A DNA stretch of 64,000 nt from Chaetoceros tenuissimus (taxonomy: Eukaryota; Bacillariophyta; Thalassiosirophyceae; Chaetocerotales; Chaetocerotaceae): positions 3,100,001-3,164,000 of the forward strand of contig BLLK01000069.1 in NCBI GenBank assembly GCA_021927905.1, written 5' to 3'. This document shows positions 19,384-30,930 of the stretch, in pieces; positions within the stretch are counted from its first letter, which is position 1, and every line of letters begins with the position of its first letter. A program made the translations under genes and the position numbers. Below the pieces are notes generated by a model. That model ran no database searches. It saw only the letters and a list, made by a program, of their open reading frames with translations, and had not been told where the DNA came from.

Positions 19384-22300
19384 TCATCCTTCAACTATGA
19401 AATCGTTCAGATCAATGAAATGATCGGTAACAAAACCTTCGTCTTGTTCGTTGTCAAGCTTTCTCCATGTATTTATCACATTATTATTGCTTTTCCTATC
19501 TCGATACAGTCGTCTCGTCTTTCGCTTTGTTCTGATGGAAAGAGAATCATTTGCATTGTTCTTATTATTGAATAAAGATGATATATATCTTTGAATAGAA
19601 GAAATTGGGTGTTCTTTCTCTTCTCTTGACATTTGCAAAAACACTGGGAGATGTTTTATTTTGTTCCTTTCTTTGTTATTATTCAATTGAGAAATATGGC
19701 CTGAAATTTCAAACAGCAATACATCAAGTTCCTCGATCATTGTCTGGATCGTTTTATCTACCCCACCACTTCGATTGCTTACCAGAGATAATAGATGGAA
19801 GATCATGCTCTCATTCTCCGTCCCAAGAGAGGAAACATATTCTAATGTTTGCATCTCGGAAATATCCAGGCAAAAACTGAGGAATCTCTGCTGCAAACGT
19901 TTGATGCAAAGAACATTTAAATGTCTAAATATTGTAACAGTAGCCGAGACATAGATTTCAAGAAAAACTTGATGTTGTTGGTTATCAATTGAATGGCAAT
20001 TGTCTTGACTGTGGAGCTCGTACATAATACCAAAGGATCTATTGAAAATCTCGACAGTTTTCGATAGATATGCTCTTGATATCCTAGTATCTGATGGAGT
20101 CAAATTATAAGTGTTGTCCTTCCAATGTATCGCAGTTAATAGTTTCCTCAAGAACTGGACAGCCGCTGTTTTTGAAAAAGCTAGGAAATCGTCGCTACTT
20201 TTTAGAATTTGACGTAGGCAATCGAATTTCTTGTGACTATCAATATCCCACACTTTAGTACATGATTCAATAATTTGCATCGAAAATGAAAACGACGGAT
20301 GATATAAAACTGATGATTGCTCCTCGACTAAAGCCCTGGAAAGATTTTGATCGGCAAGAGATAGCGCAAATTGTGCATAAATGATTGCTCTCAAAACCGC
20401 CTCATCAGTTCGTGTGTTCATACCTTCTGCGAAAATGAGCGAGCATGACGAAAGGCAAGATAGCCACGCTTGGATAGTTCCCTCCGAAAAACGATTACAA
20501 AGGAGGGTCCTTTTTGAAAGGCTCTGAAACACGGTTTGAAGAAATTTGAGTTCGACAAGAGTAACATTTCGTGTGCTGAAATCAGAAATCAGATTCTCCA
20601 CCAAAACGAGGGTAGAACTTAGAAATTCGCTAACCTCAATGAAACTAGAGTTTTCCAAAAGCGGAATAATGTCATTGAGGTAACGCAAGATATTCATGTC
20701 ATGGAATATTGAATAATATTTTGTGCAACTTTTGTAGCATTGGCACAGAATATCTGAGTCACCATATTCACTCATTAGAAACCCACCAATGGACTGTATA
20801 GAGGATAGGTTTGTCGACTTTTTCTGTTTCGAAATCTCAGGTGCAATAGATTGATGAAGATCGATTATATTCCGAAAAAAACTTTTGAAGACGAGCTTTC
20901 TTAAATTGCCTGATAAACTCGTAACCTCATCGCATGAGTTCATCAATTTGTTTGAAATGTGCTGAAGAAAAGTAGAAAACATGTCTGAATCCAATTGAGA
21001 ATATTCCCATGTATCAAATGTGAAAGCCAAGAAAGTCTGAGATAAGAGTTGCTTCAATCTCATCGTACCACGCACATCACGTCGGTGAAGATTTGACTTT
21101 TTTTCTGAAGGAATATGAATGGACGAGCACCATATTGGCAGATATTTGGACTCAGTCCATGACTCCAGTTCTACATTACAAAAGGCGTTTTGACTCAAAT
21201 GAGTTGACTCGAAGTCACTATCGTGAGATGATAAATCTTCTTCCCATATGAAATTGATCATAGACAGTAAGATTTTCTTTCCCAATTTTGTGTTTGCTTT
21301 TGTTCTGCGTGTATTACCATCGAACTTTACAATTGTAGTTTTGCATTTTGTAAAATATCTGCCAATCGTAAGATCTGTACTGCGATTTTCCTTGTTACGA
21401 AGATCTGTCAAATAGCAAAGTGCTGTTGCAAGAAGTGGAATTTCATTTTCTTCTAAATTGCTATGAAATTTGAAATTAATCTGGTGATTGATAATGTGAA
21501 CGAAAGGTAGCAAACAAAATATAATTGCTGCCTCTATTCTAGAAAGTGCATATTGATGAAGTTTGGAGATTCTCAAGTGTTTTAGAATTTTTTCCATGAC
21601 GAGGTTTCGGTGAGCATTGTCAGTACTACAACTATGTAACCTTCCAGCCACTATTGCATCGGTGATTATCGCAAGTGCGTGAGAGGAGACGCTGTCCTCG
21701 TTTTGGAAATCCGAAAATTCTTCATATAACAAAAACATCATTCCGTCGATGATGAAATATGAATCAGTGTTGTCGTGGTCGCATGTTAAGTGTTCCATCA
21801 ATTGTATAGCAAACTCAAAAACTGCATGTCTTCCAGTAGCGTGTTGTGCCAGCGAAAATAAGACACCAGTGATGAGACTCGGCGTATAGAGTGAAGTAAT
21901 CATACCCATCTTTTCCATTATTATTTTGCCAAAATCAAACTCTGGATGTCTTTTACCAATTGTTATGAGTAACATTATCAATGAGTATCTTTGAGATGTA
22001 TGCAAGGATCGATTTTCAAACAAGTTACAAGTGATTCGAACCACGAGCTCTTTCTGAATCGATGGAAACAAGCCGAAAATAGTACTTATGGTAGACACTA
22101 TCCAAACACTTTCTTCCTTTGATGATATCGAATTTGAGACAAGAAGATAGTACACAAGATCCTTCCAATAATTCCTTATGATGATATCTTGCATCAAAAA
22201 ACTCTTTTTTGTTTCAGTCTCAGTCTCGGAGTATACCAAGCAAAAAGAGTCTGCATCAACACATTTGACATCACTCAGGCATTGCCAAGTTTGTACACAG

Positions 22301-23496
22301 CTGTATAGAGTATGGACAGAATCATCACTATCTTCGTAACGTGGAATCATTTTTTCTTGACACTTTTCAAAAATGATATCACATATATATTTCTTAGCTA
22401 ATTGAAATAACTCAACACGATTCATACCCTCACTAAAACTTCCAGCTGCTAAAAGAATTAAATGGATGCGAGAATTCGATCTGATATGCACCGTTTCGTC
22501 CAAGATGTGTTCGTTGTATTTGCAATTAGCAATTGTGTGAATGATTGTTGGTGCGTCGTTAGGACAAAACGAATTCAACAACTGTTTGAAACTGTTTATA
22601 AAAGTCTTTGAGATATCTTCAAATTTCAGAGCACAGCAGTACAGATGGATTATGATTGAAAACCATGTATATACAAGCTCGCTTTCATCATTATCAAATG
22701 AAGCCAGCCCTTGTAGTACAGTCGTTGCAACCAATTTAATATAATTGGCACTATCACTCATGATAGCAATCTGATTTGAAACCTTCAATTGCACATGCCT
22801 CCACTGATCAACGTTCAATGTGAATTCATTGAAACACATATGTAAAAGATGCACTAGGACAATCGATGGTGTAGGCTCTTCTGTAATGCACCAATTATGA
22901 TTTAAGATTTTGCAGAGTACCTCTTCCTTCAGATTCTTTGTAACATCAGAATCTCGTTTACATTTAAAGAATAGAGCTTGATTGATTCTCGTTGAGATAT
23001 TATAGATGGCAAGAAGTACACGAAACATTGCCTTCACGATGTATTCTGCATCACTTGAGATATTTCCACTATTGTACAAAACTGAGCATATTTCAGTGCA
23101 AGCATTGTCAATAAAATCCTCTAATTGATCTACATTTGAATCTAGGTTTATGGAAGCGAAGAATGCGATAATCTCAGTGATAATCTTCTGATCGCCTATT
23201 AGACATTCTCTGTGTGTCTGTGTAACCTTTAAACTCTTTTGTCCATCTTTTACGAGCTTATGAATTACCTTCCTAGGAAGTTCATGGTGAGGTGGAAGCA
23301 TAAACAAGGCTCGAATCAATAACCTTCGATCAATACTCCGAAAATTTTCTACACATTGAACATCTTCTTGAGTATTGAAAAGGATGGAACAAATCTCAAG
23401 TGCAAGCTCTTTGTTGTTCAGTAAATGCTGTCGAACAACATCTTCATTGCTGTATCTTGAGGCGTTTTCAATGAACTCGAGATCATGAAGATTCAT
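19384..23496 (-). CDS. Large helical-repeat protein of unknown function
   Basis: A single uninterrupted frame of 1370 residues; ATG at 23494-23496. It is rich in Leu, Ile, Phe and Cys in amphipathic helical periodicity throughout, like HEAT/ARM-type or Fanconi FANCI/FANCD2-type solenoids. It has no signal peptide, membrane segment or catalytic motif. A stretch near residues 560-620 (FAIQLMEHL, MMFLLYEEFSDF) loosely resembles human FANCI, but the match is too weak to name it. The C-terminus is basic (RTKRKTRRLYRDRK) and then ends acidic. It converges on CHLH with 183 bp between stops and is divergent from the cyclase fusion. Low codon bias suggests modest expression. Confidence 0.85.
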   Translation of the reverse strand: MNLHDLEFIENASRYSNEDVVRQHLLNNKELALEICSILFNTQEDVQCVENFRSIDRRLLIRALFMLPPHHELPRKVIHKLVKDGQKSLKVTQTHRECLIGDQKIITEIIAFFASINLDSNVDQLEDFIDNACTEICSVLYNSGNISSDAEYIVKAMFRVLLAIYNISTRINQALFFKCKRDSDVTKNLKEEVLCKILNHNWCITEEPTPSIVLVHLLHMCFNEFTLNVDQWRHVQLKVSNQIAIMSDSANYIKLVATTVLQGLASFDNDESELVYTWFSIIIHLYCCALKFEDISKTFINSFKQLLNSFCPNDAPTIIHTIANCKYNEHILDETVHIRSNSRIHLILLAAGSFSEGMNRVELFQLAKKYICDIIFEKCQEKMIPRYEDSDDSVHTLYSCVQTWQCLSDVKCVDADSFCLVYSETETETKKSFLMQDIIIRNYWKDLVYYLLVSNSISSKEESVWIVSTISTIFGLFPSIQKELVVRITCNLFENRSLHTSQRYSLIMLLITIGKRHPEFDFGKIIMEKMGMITSLYTPSLITGVLFSLAQHATGRHAVFEFAIQLMEHLTCDHDNTDSYFIIDGMMFLLYEEFSDFQNEDSVSSHALAIITDAIVAGRLHSCSTDNAHRNLVMEKILKHLRISKLHQYALSRIEAAIIFCLLPFVHIINHQINFKFHSNLEENEIPLLATALCYLTDLRNKENRSTDLTIGRYFTKCKTTIVKFDGNTRRTKANTKLGKKILLSMINFIWEEDLSSHDSDFESTHLSQNAFCNVELESWTESKYLPIWCSSIHIPSEKKSNLHRRDVRGTMRLKQLLSQTFLAFTFDTWEYSQLDSDMFSTFLQHISNKLMNSCDEVTSLSGNLRKLVFKSFFRNIIDLHQSIAPEISKQKKSTNLSSIQSIGGFLMSEYGDSDILCQCYKSCTKYYSIFHDMNILRYLNDIIPLLENSSFIEVSEFLSSTLVLVENLISDFSTRNVTLVELKFLQTVFQSLSKRTLLCNRFSEGTIQAWLSCLSSCSLIFAEGMNTRTDEAVLRAIIYAQFALSLADQNLSRALVEEQSSVLYHPSFSFSMQIIESCTKVWDIDSHKKFDCLRQILKSSDDFLAFSKTAAVQFLRKLLTAIHWKDNTYNLTPSDTRISRAYLSKTVEIFNRSFGIMYELHSQDNCHSIDNQQHQVFLEIYVSATVTIFRHLNVLCIKRLQQRFLSFCLDISEMQTLEYVSSLGTENESMIFHLLSLVSNRSGGVDKTIQTMIEELDVLLFEISGHISQLNNNKERNKIKHLPVFLQMSREEKEHPISSIQRYISSLFNNKNNANDSLSIRTKRKTRRLYRDRKSNNNVINTWRKLDNEQDEGFVTDHFIDLNDFIVEG

Positions 23497-23972
23497 CGAA
23501 AGCTATGATCCAACGTCACAAGAAGACGATGAAATAGTTAAGCAAACACACTTGGATTTGAATTCACTTTCATATGAAAATAATACAACGTCGTGGTGTC
23601 TAATATTTTGATGTGATTTTGTTCAGTGCTCTGGACGACTCCACTCGACTCTGGTATGGTACTACTTTAGCACGGTACGTCATGGATGATGTAGTACATA
23701 CACGTGCACATGACGGAGAAACTCAAAACATTGATACGAATAATCAAAGCAGATCTCAAGCAGAACTTTTCATCATAACTTACTGCTCTTCACTCTCGAA
23801 ACTCGGCTAAACTATTGTTCATGTCCTACCGGCTACCGGTCCCAGACCAAAAGGAGGAGCTCATCAGCTCATCCCGTACCCCGTACCCCCGTACCTATCT
23901 GAATCTGTTTACATAAAAACACCACCAACGTCGTCAGAGTTTGCTATATTGAACAGTCATTATTCCTTGATA
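23497..23972. promoter_or_regulatory. Shared divergent promoter with ACGTCA cores and GTACC repeats
   Basis: The 476 bp separate two divergent ATGs. ACGTCA (TGACGT on the other strand) occurs at 23513-23518 and 23677-23682. Near the cyclase start are direct repeats ctaccggctaccggt (about 23826-23840), gagctcatcagctcatc (about 23858-23874) and three GTACC units in cccgtaccccgtaccccc (about 23873-23895). These are sequence observations; regulatory action is inferred from location. Confidence 0.4.
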
Positions 23973-26900
23973 ATGTTGCCTGACAATGATAACAACAGAA
24001 TGGAACCTAGAAAGAGAAGACAAGGTAGCATCCTTAGGATGCCTGGCGAAGCAGTTCTTATGAGAGAGTGTGGAATGCAAAGGAGACTTTCGTTCAAGGA
24101 ACAGGATATAAATGATGTTTCTTCCCGACGAAATAGAATGGATAACTTTGATGCCCAGTACATCCAAACATCCACTAATGCATCTTCATACACTGACGAG
24201 GAAAGCGAGAATAAAAGTGCTAATAAGCAAAATTTCAAAACGAGTGCTCCTATTTGGAAATTAATGAGACCTCAATTGAGTTGTAGTTCAAGGCATTCTG
24301 ACACAACTACAGAATCTGCTTTAAGAGAAAAAAATCAGCAACGTTCGGACCTCCGTAGGATCATTGTGCACACTTGCAAAAAGATTGAGATGTCCACCTC
24401 GTGGAACATCTTGGTATTGATTTTTACAATAATTCTTTTGCTTGGAGGAATACTCCCATTATTCCTTCGGGGTGGCATGCAGAAAATATTAGATCCTTTG
24501 TTCCTTATCACAATTATAGTCCTTATCATGGATATGTTTGTTGCAAGTCAAACTCAACATAAATACTTTTATCTTCGGTGGAAATCTTGGACTGATTTTA
24601 GCTTTGGAAGCTTTCTGTTCTTCTATGATTTCATAAGTGTCATCTCCCTTATAGTTGATATCTCATGGGTGAAAAGGATGATTGTTACGAGCGACATTGA
24701 AATACAAGTTGAGAATGGTGAGCCTATGTACAATTCAAAAGGTCTTTTGCATGTGAATGTGATGATTATGTTCGGTATAGTTTTCAGAATGGCAAGAGTT
24801 GCACGATTTCTTCGTATTGCAACTGTTTTATCTTGTTCAAAGGCTACAAGCACAAAAATTTTGACTTGTCTATCAAAGCGCCCAAAGACAAAGGATCAAA
24901 TCGAGACCAGTTCATCTCGGAAAAGTTCGAAAGAAACAAATCTTGACGAGGCAGAAGCTAAAACCCAAATACAAATAAAGACAAATGATCAAGATATTTT
25001 GAAGGAAATTTCACACATTGACAAATATCGCAAGGCCGCTGTGATAATCCAAAGATCCTGGCGCAAATATTACTCTAATGAAAGTATAAAGCAGAAACAG
25101 GCTGAAGAATTAGAAAAGAAACGGAAGATGAATGAAAGAATTGCGAGACTGCAAAAAAATTATAGGCGCTCGTCGGTAAGAGAGTTGGCACCAATTATTC
25201 CTCCTACGTCAAAAAGTGCGGCCAATCGTAGGAGAAGGAGAAGGAAGAACTCTGACATAGGGCGTGTTATGAATGAATTCACTACAAAGAAAGTCGCTTA
25301 CGGTACCATAATTGCTATTGCTTTGACAACATTATTCACACCCTTCGAGACTGATGTAACAAACCCCTTTGCTATGGTTGCACTCCACAATAGTATGACA
25401 AATTTGCGGAGAAATGCTATTGAGGAAGGTGACAAAACTTTATTTACAGAAGGTGCAAAGATCCACCGTCAAAATGCCGAGAAATCATCCAATTATGACA
25501 TGGTAAATTTTTCATTCGAAGATTTGAGAGAAAATTCAACTGGAATATTTCATTTCAATGTAATGAAAGAAGGGGATATTTCAGCGAATAACGAAATCCT
25601 TGTTATTACTGTTATCGGGGATGATGCGAAGAGTATCGCTTATTTCGATAGATTTGGAGCGCAACAGAGTCTAGGAGGAATCGGCTTACTTTTTTTATGT
25701 TTTGATATATTTGTATGGTTCTTGGGTCTCCTTTTCTTTGCTGGTCCAGTGACTACACTTGTTGTCATTCCCATAGAAAGAATGATTAGACTATTGAACA
25801 TGCTTGTTCGGGATCCATTAGGTAGGAGATATCTTGTTGGCTCTTTATTATTATTTGTCTATTTCCCCGGATATCTTTCTCATAATTTTTGTAGGCTATG
25901 ATAGTACTGAAAACTTTTACAGGTTTACTTCTGAAGAAGAAGAAATTGTGAAATATACATGCTGGACAAACAGAAACATGAAAGGAATGGAGACTATGTT
26001 TCTCATGAACACAATTATTCGTATTGGATCATTGATGAAAGTTGGGTATGGTGCAGGTGAGTCCAAGAATAAACTCTACCGCTTTTCAGTTCTATATCGG
26101 AATATCAATTAACTTGCTTCTCTTTCTTTCTCTAGCTGGTGTGGAAATCATTAGAGCTAGTCTTCGAAAAAATTCAAAAAGTAGTGTAACGTTACGTGAG
26201 AATCAAAAGGCGGTAACTGTCAGTTGCATCTTCATGTTTTGTGATATTCGTCGATTTACTGCTGCCTCCGAATGTCTTCAGGAGGAAGTGTTCCTCTTCA
26301 CAAACAAAATAGCAGAAGTGGTACATTCTGTATGCCATAGTTTGGGAGGATATGCTGTCAAAAATGTAGGTGATGCATTCCTCATGAATTGGAAATTGGA
26401 GGAGCCCCGAGGAGAAATGCTACGGGCAGACAATAAACAAGCAGACAAAGCGTTGCTTTCTTGCGTGCATATTTGCATGGCGCTTTGTAATGAAGAGTTT
26501 TTCTTGAAGGATATCAGCAAAGATACCAGGGAGAGACTTCAAGACAAGTTCAAGAAGCAGAAAGGAAACTTGGTTCATCTAGGGTTTGGTTTACATGCAG
26601 GCAAAGCTGTAGAAGGCGCTATTGGGTCTCCAAGGAAACTCGATGCAACTTATCTAAGTAATGAGGTGGAGCTGGCAGAGTTCTTGGAGTCTACGACGGT
26701 GAGTGGGTTTTGCATCACTGATTTTTCTCTATTACAAATACAAATTTTTAGCTCACCTTGTTTCTTTCTATAATCAGAAAAAGTATGGTGTAGATATACT
26801 AATGTCAGGATCTTTTTATCAATTGCTCCACCATAGTAATCAACGTAGATGTCGACAAATTGATGAAGTTTTCTTTGGAGATGACTCTGACGAAGATGAG

Positions 26901-27599
26901 ACAGACTTTGTCGAAATTCCAGAAGAAGAGGGCGAGAATTATATGCGCCTGTATACATTTGATTTTGAATTGGAATCTCTTCAGGAACTTACAAAAAGCG
27001 CAATTGAAAAATTACACCGAAATAAATCAAAGAAAGAAGTTTCCCGTGAGAGTAATGAAATGAATCGTTCGGTATTTGGCAGACGTTCTATAACGAATTT
27101 AAATCGGTCAAAGACTAGCAATCAAAACAGAAAAAGCACACTTATTCCTGCACAAAACATGGAGCTTCGGCGTTCCACAGGTGCTCGCTTCCCTCAAACA
27201 AAGTCAAATTCTAGGTTCTTGCACGTATTTAGACAACGTGAAAGTTTGTCAGAGATAGTGCGTGTAAGAAGTTCAGATATTTCTTCGTCGGAAAAAGAAT
27301 TGAAAAACAAAAAGGAGGTATTTTTCCAACTGCCAAATGGCAAAGTCAAATATCATTCTGCTCTATGGAAAGATGAATCGATAAAAGCCATGCGAAAGAA
27401 GTACAATTCCTCGTTTTATCAGAGGTTTGTTAATGGTTTCATCTGCTACCAAGGAGGAGATTGGATCAATGCTAGAAAAGAATTCGAGCTCATGGTAAAT
27501 TGCTATCAGGATCAGCCTTCAGCATTACTCTTATCCAAGATGAGTGCAACAAACTTTATACCACCAAGGAACTTTAGACTCAGACTAGCAAAATGCTAA
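23973..27599 (+). CDS. Voltage-sensor/IQ/class III nucleotide cyclase fusion (4 exons)
   Basis: CDS join(23973..25821, 25895..26056, 26136..26698, 26778..27599), 1131 aa; introns of 73, 79 and 79 nt, all GT...AG. The first in-frame ATG is 23973. Four membrane helices at about 142-165, 174-192, 205-233 and 263-286 form a voltage-sensor-like module; the fourth has Arg every third residue (FRMARVARFLRIA). An IQ motif (AAVIIQRSWRKYY, ~355) precedes helix 5 (~440), a ~110-residue outer loop, helix 6 (~567-598) and a PIERMIRLLNML linker. The class III cyclase domain (~700-870) has FCDIRRFT, GDAFLMNW and LHAGKAVEGAIGS. The last 250 residues are charged, ending in a TPR-like segment. Likely role: voltage- or calmodulin-gated cNMP synthesis. 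The usual NxxxR catalytic pair reads ELAEF here. Confidence 0.85.
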
Positions 27600-28231: not shown

Positions 28232-28924
28232 CTAGGCAAGTATCTTCCTGCCCAAGTACATCAAGTGCCTGTTGAATTCAATTCTCAGTGATTGGATGCA
28301 ATACAGAAGAAGCATGATCACTCTAACGCCGGTGAGTAGGATACGATGTTCTTGTCCAAGCACATCAAAAACCTGTTGAATGGACTTCTCAGTAACAATA
28401 TCCGGCACAGAAGTTGTCTTGTCAAATACCACAATCGGTGAATCTTTCCACAGAACTCTAGCAATCGCGGTGCTCTCCCTTTCGCCTTTGGATGATTTTA
28501 ATCTCCGATAACCAACCAATATGTTGCATCCCCGAGGCAATAAGCAAATAATATCAATTGATTGACCAGACACAACAACTTTATCCAACTCTAAGTCAAC
28601 TACATCTCTCTTTCCATATGTAATATTTGTACAAAAAGTGCCATTGAACAAACTCGTAGCGAATGGAACTATTCCGATTATTGCACGAAGACTCTCTTGA
28701 ATAGATTGTAGAAATACTCGGATCATTTCACGAAGACTCTTTTGGATTACGCTGTGTATATCAGTTCCATCTACCTTAACTGTAACTCCAAGAACCTCGT
28801 AACATCTAAACAAGAATCTCCTCTCCGTAGTTCCTTCAACTTTCTTCATCTTGAATGATACTATCTTGAATTGTTCATGATCGCCCGGACTAGGATATTT
28901 AATAATAACATTATCACATTCCAC
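28232..28924 (-). pseudogene. Decayed ABC-transporter ATPase domain (ABCB/HMT-like)
   Basis: A 230-codon open frame still follows the half-transporter ABCB nucleotide-binding domain: VECDNVIIKYPSPGDHEQF, VKVDGTDI, QKSLRE, IGIVPFATSLFNGT, ITYGKRD, LLPRGCNILVGYR and PIVVFDKTTSVPDIVTEKS. The working motifs are gone. The Walker A position reads VEGTTERR, the signature LSGGE is SSKGE, and the catalytic Glu after Walker B is Lys. Two internal duplications are visible: SVIQKSLREMIRVFLQSIQESLRAI, and a 104-nt-offset repeat of the QQVFDVLGQEH region at the 3' end. No membrane domain lies alongside. It is best read as a host gene relic; domesticated use without ATP turnover is possible but unsupported. 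Confidence 0.75.
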
Positions 28925-30930
28925 TGCACTATCAAGCTCACTGACATTGTATTGTATCTTAGTGATTAAGATCTCGATTCTAACTCGAAAATTTTCATCA
29001 TGGAAGACGGTAATGTTTTCAGCAAAAACAACAACATACAGCTAAATAACTAACACTGATTCATATGGACTTACGGAACATACCACAGTATTCAGTACTA
29101 TCGTCTCACCATACCATTTCAATCGATTCAATGGAGTTTTTTTGATTTGAAAAGGAAGCAAAATCCTTGGTTGAAGGTGACCAAACAGCACGCACTTATC
29201 GGTGTAAGAAGGAACTAACTCTATTCGAGGAATCCTTGGCTTGTCAAAGAGTCGAACAAGAAGGGAAGAGTCGAACAAGAAGGAAACGAAAGATCCTTGG
29301 TTGAAGGTGACCAAACAGCAATCTTGAAGAGGAACTCAGATCTTTTGGTTATTCGACCGATCCTTGGTGGCCTTGAGCTTTAAAGGTTCTTCTGACCTCG
29401 AGCTCAGTATCCAAACTAAAGAATAGGTTCTTCATGACCTTGACTTCAGTTCGAAAACGGAGAGCTTGGACAACAACCCTAAATATTTCAAAATATGTAA
29501 TCAAATACCGAAGGCACTGAACAGCAATGATTTGAAGTGCTAAGATAACATGAACATCTTCTGTCGACTCTGTATTTGTCATTTGGCCGAAAGGAATCCA
29601 TCCTCAAAAGAACTTATATATTTAGTCCTTTTAAAGGAAGCAAGAGGTTCTCGTTATGTCTTGAGCTACTCAATGAAAACAATTTGATATGTTTAGAGCT
29701 AATTATTTATTTGGTCAACCTGAAGGCCCAGGTGATGTATTCAAGAGCATATGTTTCATTTTTTCTTTCGACAAGAGATCAAATATTGCTTCCTCGGTTT
29801 AGAAAGATTTCGAGAAGTGAGTTTGGAAACAACACTAAAGTCCTGCGTAAAGGAAGAGTGATACATAAATCAAATTTAGTAGAAGAAGTGAGACCTTTGC
29901 AATAGAATAGCAATCTTGCTAATATTTGTACGTAGAGTCAGCAGACTGGAATGAAATTGGAGTGAATTTAGATATTCAAACGAGTAGTAATGAAAAAGGA
30001 GAAACAAAATCTCTATAGAAGGACCCCATGTTAGTAACAAACATTTCGAGAATGAGAGGATTCAGATCCTTGGTGGTTCAAATGCAGAACTTAGGTTATC
30101 TGTCAAACCAATAACGGGACAGTATTTATAAAACTCTTATGCCTCGAGTAAAGTAACGATGATCTTGTAACATGTTGTTCTAGTCTTTGGATTGAAGTGA
30201 CCGTCCAAAACAGCTAGGTTTGTAAATGAAACATTTTGTAATGCCGGAGCTAGAATGCCTAAAAATCGTTTTGTACTTATTGCTGTAAATTGATTTGAAC
30301 AAAGTCTCTTGAAAGTAGAGTCCGTGTGATTCTATTTGAAGAGTATGAAGTCACATTTTACTTTGTTTTCTTGCCTTCGACTAGATCTGAATGCAGCGTG
30401 TTTATAGTTGAAAATAAAGATGAGAAACAAGCAATAATTAACATTAGGAGTCGTAACTTGTCTGGAATGGTACGTATTGGTTCTTGATCATGAGTTGTAA
30501 TGTCTAGGCAACAAAAGCATTGTCATGTAGTCTACTTCAGAGTGGTGTGAGTTGCTGGTCTAGAGTTTCATATTTACTGCTATATGCATTCGTTGGTCTA
30601 AAGATTCATGGAGATGAAGAAGAGACTGTTTCTTGATTTGTTTCAACTTTGCTGTGGTTGGCGCTGCATTTTGATTCCTCTTTGTCTCTGGCACCTTCAA
30701 TGTTTGGCTCCCACCTCTTCGCCAGAAGGTCGCCATCCTTATTCCTTCCACAGTTTTCTTGAATGCGATTTGATCAAAACCTCCTCCACTAGCCCACCTG
30801 AATAAAAGATGAACAAGAAGAGAAGTATACGGCACAAAAATGTAGTAAGCCCGGTAAAATGAGCCTCTACTCCTGTTGCACTCTCAATATAAGATGTAAT
30901 TGATGGACATACCGAAGAAAAGGATCCTAA
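28925..30930. other. Gene-poor repeat-rich stretch
   Basis: No convincing gene. Direct repeats are present: ccttggttgaaggtgaccaa occurs near 29164 and 29294, and gagtcgaacaagaagg is in tandem near 29247-29283. Several short open frames (77-109 codons) show no homology or codon bias. The stretch looks like old mobile or duplicated DNA, but no family could be assigned. Confidence 0.4.

Follow-up and report, generated by a model that had tools for sequence, protein, structure and literature searches.

A diatom gene joining a voltage-sensor-like segment to a partly degenerate class III cyclase domain, with paralogs and bacterial relatives

The window analyzed here is a stretch of 64,000 nucleotides from the diatom Chaetoceros tenuissimus (contig BLLK01000069.1, positions 3,100,001 to 3,164,000 of the forward strand). 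Its plus strand harbors a gene (window positions 23973..27599) predicted to encode a protein of 1131 amino acids (aa), hereafter called Q, in which a voltage-sensor domain (VSD), recognized by homology, precedes a class III cyclase domain that has lost part of its catalytic residues. Six diatom genes and three bacterial proteins form the family to which Q belongs. The distribution of catalytic residues among them suggests that Q may serve as the C1-like half of a voltage-tuned cyclase that is an obligate heterodimer, rather than being a self-sufficient enzyme, a reading to which a probability of roughly 45 % was assigned.

Gene structure and domain order

The gene starts at 23973, stops at 27599 and comprises four exons (23973-25821, 25895-26056, 26136-26698 and 26778-27599), every intron being of the GT-AG type. 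Exons were chosen among 616 in-frame combinations; two among the best 60 of these 616 by length gave 1131 aa, and the one consistent with the paralogs was retained. The four-exon model of 1131 aa, previously proposed from the letters of the window (the sequence-only reading), held at these coordinates, and its three junctions were matched by the sister gene D (L025), which is intron-free across all of them (DPLGYQSSEK, VGFGEAGAKII and LESSTKRYGV). In paralog A (L013), the region from the first helix (S1) to the end of the cyclase lies inside a single open frame of 757 codons. Because of the intron-free junctions of D and the single frame of A, the predicted exon 1 and exons 2-4 are parts of one gene. 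That Q is an artefact, two neighboring genes having been merged in reading, is hardly credible and was rejected: the L013 frame is unbroken, L025 lacks introns at the junctions, the bacterial relatives display the identical domain order in single unbroken frames, and exon 1 of Q by itself reaches from the VSD past the PIERM motif described below.

Helices S1 (aa 146-164; 24408..24464), S2 (aa 172-190; 24486..24542) and S3 (aa 210-228; 24600..24656) were located by hydropathy, together with the family VSD profile for S1 and S2 and with alignment for S2 and S3. S4 (about aa 261-287; 24753..24833) was assigned from the sequence and the same profile. Two further helices, TM5 (aa 441-459; 25293..25349) and TM6 (aa 572-590; 25686..25742), placed by hydropathy and family comparison, surround an outer loop of about 112 aa (25350..25685) without any Pfam match. 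They are followed by a linker starting with PIERM (aa 600-604; 25770..25784), the paralogs displaying PIEKM, PIESM, PIERM or PLRKM. The hydropathy scan was crude: it added flags at aa 593-611 and 776-794 of Q, the latter within the cyclase domain, and overlooked TM5 in the bacterial protein L027. TxGYG is the pore signature of K+ channels; neither a TxGYG-like stretch nor GYG or GFG was found in the outer loop. The absence of a pore pair directly after S4, and the two helices around an outer loop ahead of PIERM, were thus correctly recognized in the sequence-only reading.

The linker between S4 and TM5 measures 157 aa in Q and 152 in D, as opposed to 38-56 in A, B, C and E and 41 in the bacterial members. 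It contains a weak IQ-like motif (AAVIIQRSWRKYY, aa 355-367; 25035..25073), on which a link to calmodulin had been proposed. Pfam IQ reached 10.8 bits (cut-off 20.3) and IQ_SCN5A_C 14.2 bits (E 0.033, cut-off 27.7). The IQ core pattern ([FILV]Q, three residues, R/K) occurs twice in the linker of Q (aa 359 and 393) and is missing from D. With both scores below threshold and the pattern missing from the sister protein, the calmodulin-binding interpretation is not supported. The cyclase domain (aa 701-889; 26225..26870) is split by the intron 26699-26777. Finally, a C-terminal tail (27361..27596), resembling tetratricopeptide repeats (TPR) according to the sequence-only reading, is common to the family. 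The tail itself was confirmed by family comparison, but its repeat nature was not: among the six diatom proteins, TPR_2 matched paralog A only (15.3 bits, below the cut-off of 27).

Family members in the diatom genome and in bacteria

A search of the 41 Mb genome with A (P0001) led to five further places, on C18, C32, C54 (2.47 Mb), C14 and at the window gene; a weak seventh place (C14:2019212) displayed an E value of 2.25. The six family genes are A (L013), B (L023), C (L024), D (L025), E (L026) and Q, the exon structures of A to E being predicted splice choices. All five paralogs share with Q the segment S1-S4 (with a remnant S4 in E), the two helices around an outer loop, the cyclase and the tail. 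Paralog C (G000:C32:2577000-2585500, minus strand) carries in addition GAF and PDEase_I domains (3'5'-cyclic phosphodiesterase, 236.9 bits) ahead of its VSD, which is followed by the outer-loop unit and a cyclase retaining the usual residues at the catalytic positions. The same genome contains 11 silicon transporter matches over the cut-off, with scores of up to 705.6 bits. Loci L009, L010, L011 and L012 displayed, by eye, frames in which a large ATPase-like region comes after two cyclase-like parts, and L011 looks like a near duplicate of L012; none of the four matched the window protein in the search concerned.

When prokaryote species genomes were scanned with two short patterns, four out of 44 stretches were confirmed (L027, L028, L030 and L029); two scans of viral contigs revealed no relative. 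Three of the four, L027, L028 and L030, stem from metagenome-assembled genomes (MAGs) of Candidatus Poribacteria and consist of unbroken frames of 877, 793 and 780 aa. The gene adjoins genes of an ATP-binding cassette (ABC) transporter, being located between a substrate-binding-like gene and the genes for permease and ATPase, all on one strand (L027:1808-8882, with like positions in L028 and L030; NCBIfam was consulted for the L027 neighbors only). Because of their unbroken frames and these neighbors, the three proteins were taken as bacterial. At E<=1e-20 the gene occurred in three of 84 genomes of the phylum, which are the same three MAGs. The fourth stretch, L029 from a Verrucomicrobiaceae MAG, is in pieces across several frames and possibly represents contamination from a eukaryote; it was used as a partial row of the cyclase tree only and is left out of the count of bacterial members.

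Like Q, the Poribacteria proteins consist of S1-S4, two helices around an outer loop, a PIxxM linker, a cyclase and a similar tail. They differ from it by their intact seven catalytic positions, a longer outer loop (165-238 aa) and the short S4-TM5 linker mentioned above. PF00211 did not match L028 and L030 at E<=1, though both share 54-55 % identity with L027 in the cyclase region. NCBIfam had no family for the cyclase proteins tried (L027, L028 and P0001).

The voltage-sensor segment

As had been noted in the sequence-only reading, arginines occupy every third position of an S4-like helix: four of them are found at exact three-residue spacing in Q (FRMARVARFLRIA, aa 271). Paralogs A, B and C display longer Arg/Lys arrays. 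The Asp of S3 (in FLFFYD of Q) is invariant, and each row has an acidic residue in S2, in the five-row alignment A1.

A family VSD profile was built from A, B, C and the three bacterial VSDs, leaving out Q, D and E. These three scored 38.8, 31.4 and 29.4 bits as cut-out segments, and 33.6, 28.9 and 24.5 bits as whole proteins. None of 2000 block shuffles reached the real score in any of the three cases (maxima of 13.1, 12.0 and 9.0 bits for Q, D and E, respectively). Nine members of the family are full-length (Q, A to E, L027, L028 and L030), five of which matched Pfam Ion_trans at E<=1e-3: A (22.5 bits), C (19.2), L027 (25.6), L028 (19.8) and L030 (22.6). These matches all fall inside the first 129 of the 241 profile positions, i.e. 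the S1-S4 part, and only L027 exceeded the cut-off of 25 bits. Profile searches of the PDB placed voltage-gated channels on top, weakly (Shaker, E 0.0092; Cav1.1, E 0.026). The assignment of S1-S4 of Q as a VSD is therefore supported by homology, and not by predicted fold.

The cyclase domain and the sorting of catalytic residues

Pfam PF00211 (Guanylate_cyc) matched Q with 43.6 bits (cut-off 21.9), the highest score among the six diatom proteins. The family cyclase profile matched photoactivated cyclases of the PDB, and the mapping of catalytic residues was consistent with alignments to one with a solved structure, bPAC (5mbh). Both metal-binding aspartates were kept, D707 in FCDIR (26243..26245) and D750 in NVGDAF (26372..26374). 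In contrast, Glu849 (26669..26671) stands at the position of the transition-state Asn, Phe853 (26681..26683) at that of the transition-state Arg, and Gly (26877..26879) replaces the Lys of the Lys-Gly motif. This loss is absent from the sequence-only reading, in which Q itself would produce a cyclic nucleotide; that part of its proposal is now doubtful.

Sister protein D displays the same pattern: both Q and D retain the two metal-binding Asp, the base-recognizing Lys and the Thr; Asn is replaced by Glu, Arg by Phe or Tyr, and Lys by Gly or Arg. In A, the Arg is replaced by Phe and the Lys column contains Ser, though the adjacent residue is Lys. Paralog B has Asn instead of the second metal Asp and E has neither metal Asp left, while both have kept Asn, Arg and Lys. 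The usual residue was found at all seven catalytic positions in C and in the three bacterial proteins. All five degenerate genes (Q, D, A, B and E) hence show losses in one half of the active site only.

The cyclase tree grouped the degenerate proteins as (A,(D,Q)) and (B,E), with support of 100/99 each; it was built on 10 rows, one of them partial (L029), and three of its seven inner branches are open. If losses fell randomly over five sites, the chance of confinement to one half in D and E jointly would be ~0.04 (0.1 x 0.4). In animal adenylyl cyclases, the metal Asp residues are located on C1 and the Asn and Arg on C2, which leaves one working site. With A, D and Q as C1-like proteins and B and E as their C2-like partners, the observed sorting is what would be expected.

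Interpretation and rival readings

Diatoms fire action potentials. Apart from voltage-sensing phosphatases, little is known to us of direct enzymatic outputs of voltage. If correctly interpreted, a VSD that lacks a pore and is attached to a cyclase would convert voltage into a second messenger with no need for an ion flux. Voltage sensing by the membrane domains of cyclases is treated as an open question in the available part of PMC12414865.

Sequence comparison establishes the gene and its domain order, VSD homology, the clades and the losses of catalytic residues; the voltage response, pairing, activity and product of Q are inferred. The protein would be a six-helix membrane protein in which a pore-less S1-S4 and a long cytoplasmic linker precede a receptor-like unit, made up of TM5 and TM6 with the outer loop between them, the PIERM linker and the signalling helix, and finally a cyclase domain amounting to the metal-binding, C1-like half only. 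Membrane voltage would shift S4, the outer loop may sense some other signal, and both would act on the helix preceding the cyclase. A C2-like partner (L023 or L026) would supply Asn, Arg and Lys, giving a mixed dimer with one functional site out of two. Such a pair would resemble animal adenylyl cyclase in having metal Asp on one half and Asn and Arg on the other; there the halves belong to one chain, whereas the proposed diatom halves are separate chains, each with its own VSD. The sorted residues lead to a sharp prediction on mixed dimers, and the bacterial members, being catalytically complete versions, could be tested in Escherichia coli.

A wider and more tentative proposal, held with somewhat less confidence, concerns the whole family. 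A type of voltage-sensing cyclase also found in bacteria might have split in diatoms into C1-like (Q, L025, L013) and C2-like (L023, L026) subunits, each with its own S1-S4 and outer-loop sensor. As cyclic nucleotide would come from mixed pairs only, the result would be a two-sensor coincidence detector, with L024 as a third type bearing its own phosphodiesterase.

Several observations weigh against the heterodimer reading or its voltage-sensing part. The sorting of losses was noticed post hoc, in two clades of one genome, and is suggestive, not proven. It is also incomplete: A retains the Asn within the C1-like clade and B retains the first metal Asp within the C2-like clade. Paralog E forms a long branch, of unsure placement according to the tree tool, and the three bacterial proteins count as about two independent ones since L028 and L030 are 87 % alike. 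Regarding the VSD, Q did not match Pfam Ion_trans at E<=1, and its S2, like that of D, displays LxxD instead of the FxxE seen by eye in A, B, C and the bacterial proteins. AlphaFold models were unusable, both for aa 127-616 alone (mean pLDDT, the model's own per-residue confidence score, 45.2) and for the S1-S4 segment with three bacterial rows (45.8; its alignment, A3, places a gap within S2 of Q). Foldseek on the second model returned six matches; all had E>0.001, and no voltage sensor was among them. The earlier claim of a VSD and a class III cyclase in one chain is consequently upheld by sequence homology and receives no support from structure. It is rather improbable that S1-S4 is nothing but an anchor or dimerization unit having lost voltage sensing. 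The LxxD of Q and D, the missing Ion_trans match and the remnant S4 of E would fit such a unit; the regularly spaced arginines of Q, the conserved acidic residues of S2 and S3, and the longer Arg/Lys arrays of A, B and C would not.

The catalytic losses could also be read differently. Q might be a pseudo-cyclase, playing no part in catalysis but binding nucleotide or other proteins in a regulatory role; Asn, Arg and Lys are indeed gone in Q and D, and the partner of Q is a candidate only. This is considered somewhat unlikely, as both metal Asp, the base-recognizing Lys and the Thr, needless for a pure scaffold, were retained in both proteins, and a clade with complementary residues exists. The self-sufficient, homodimeric voltage-sensing cyclase assumed in the sequence-only reading can point to the catalytically complete C and bacterial proteins, and to the cyclase of Q scoring over the Pfam cut-off and highest of the six. 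Neither site of a Q homodimer would however possess the transition-state Asn or Arg; a complete voltage-to-cyclic-nucleotide enzyme in Q alone appears unlikely, and we give the homodimer a low probability.

Relation to known systems

VSD-cyclases as such were already known, and the five paralogs and the three bacterial proteins share the domain order of Q; the order pointed out in the sequence-only reading is therefore not unique. A pore-less VSD joined to a cyclase was described in 2025 in Phytophthora parasitica (PPTG_13136 / PPTG_13761, the "bimodal" family; PMC12223298). As far as its description goes, that family resembles Q by its N-terminal voltage sensor with S4, the lack of pore homology, the C-terminal Guanylate_cyc and its membrane-bound nature. 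Ion_trans is reported there for the voltage sensor, unlike in Q. In the passages of PMC12223298 on the bimodal family, catalytic loss is not mentioned, and its main text contains neither the word diatom nor the word bacteria. According to the available text, the family seems limited to stramenopiles and alveolates, and it is found exclusively in organisms with flagella or cilia; one member was found by antibody mostly on a single flagellum, though the figure legend notes no differential distribution with the quantification applied. If the Poribacteria proteins belong to this family, they contradict the restriction to stramenopiles and alveolates stated in PMC12223298. As for flagellar markers in the diatom genome, Dynein_heavy gave four matches and Radial_spoke_3 none, in a search run without a positive control.

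The source study on ciliate and apicomplexan channel-adenylyl cyclases is reportedly that of Weber et al. from 2004. As cited in the available parts of PMC12223298 and PMC12414865, these enzymes, like Q, join a channel-like N-terminus to a cyclase, but they are described with a K+ channel pore, where Q displays its outer loop devoid of TxGYG. Bifunctional enzymes of the diatom Seminavis robusta (PMC8027222) combine guanylate cyclase and phosphodiesterase in one membrane protein, as does L024. In the text available, both of their domains belong to the C-terminal intracellular part, whereas GAF and phosphodiesterase precede the VSD in L024. Adenylate cyclase was reported as present in four diatoms (PMC3727952) and receptor-type guanylate cyclases in Seminavis (PMC6688387), a voltage sensor on the cyclase being unnamed in the available text of either. 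Among the matches listed, the literature search returned no paper on diatom or bacterial VSD-cyclases and nothing joining adenylate cyclase, voltage-sensing and Poribacteria; matches were judged largely by listing, and the search mostly covered journals other than subscription ones. Neither the six-member diatom set nor the bacterial members nor the catalytic sorting were encountered in the literature searched.

Other features of the window

A stop-to-stop frame of 1372 codons (19384-23502, minus strand) is oriented head to head with the gene of Q, its upstream end being ~470 bases from the start of the latter. Downstream, an open frame at 28232-29041 (minus strand) resembles, by eye only, a degraded ABC transporter ATPase (SSKGERESTAIARVLWKDSPIVVFDKTTSVPD). 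A pair of 31-base copies, 97 % identical and spaced by 130 bases start to start, is located at 29160-29320.
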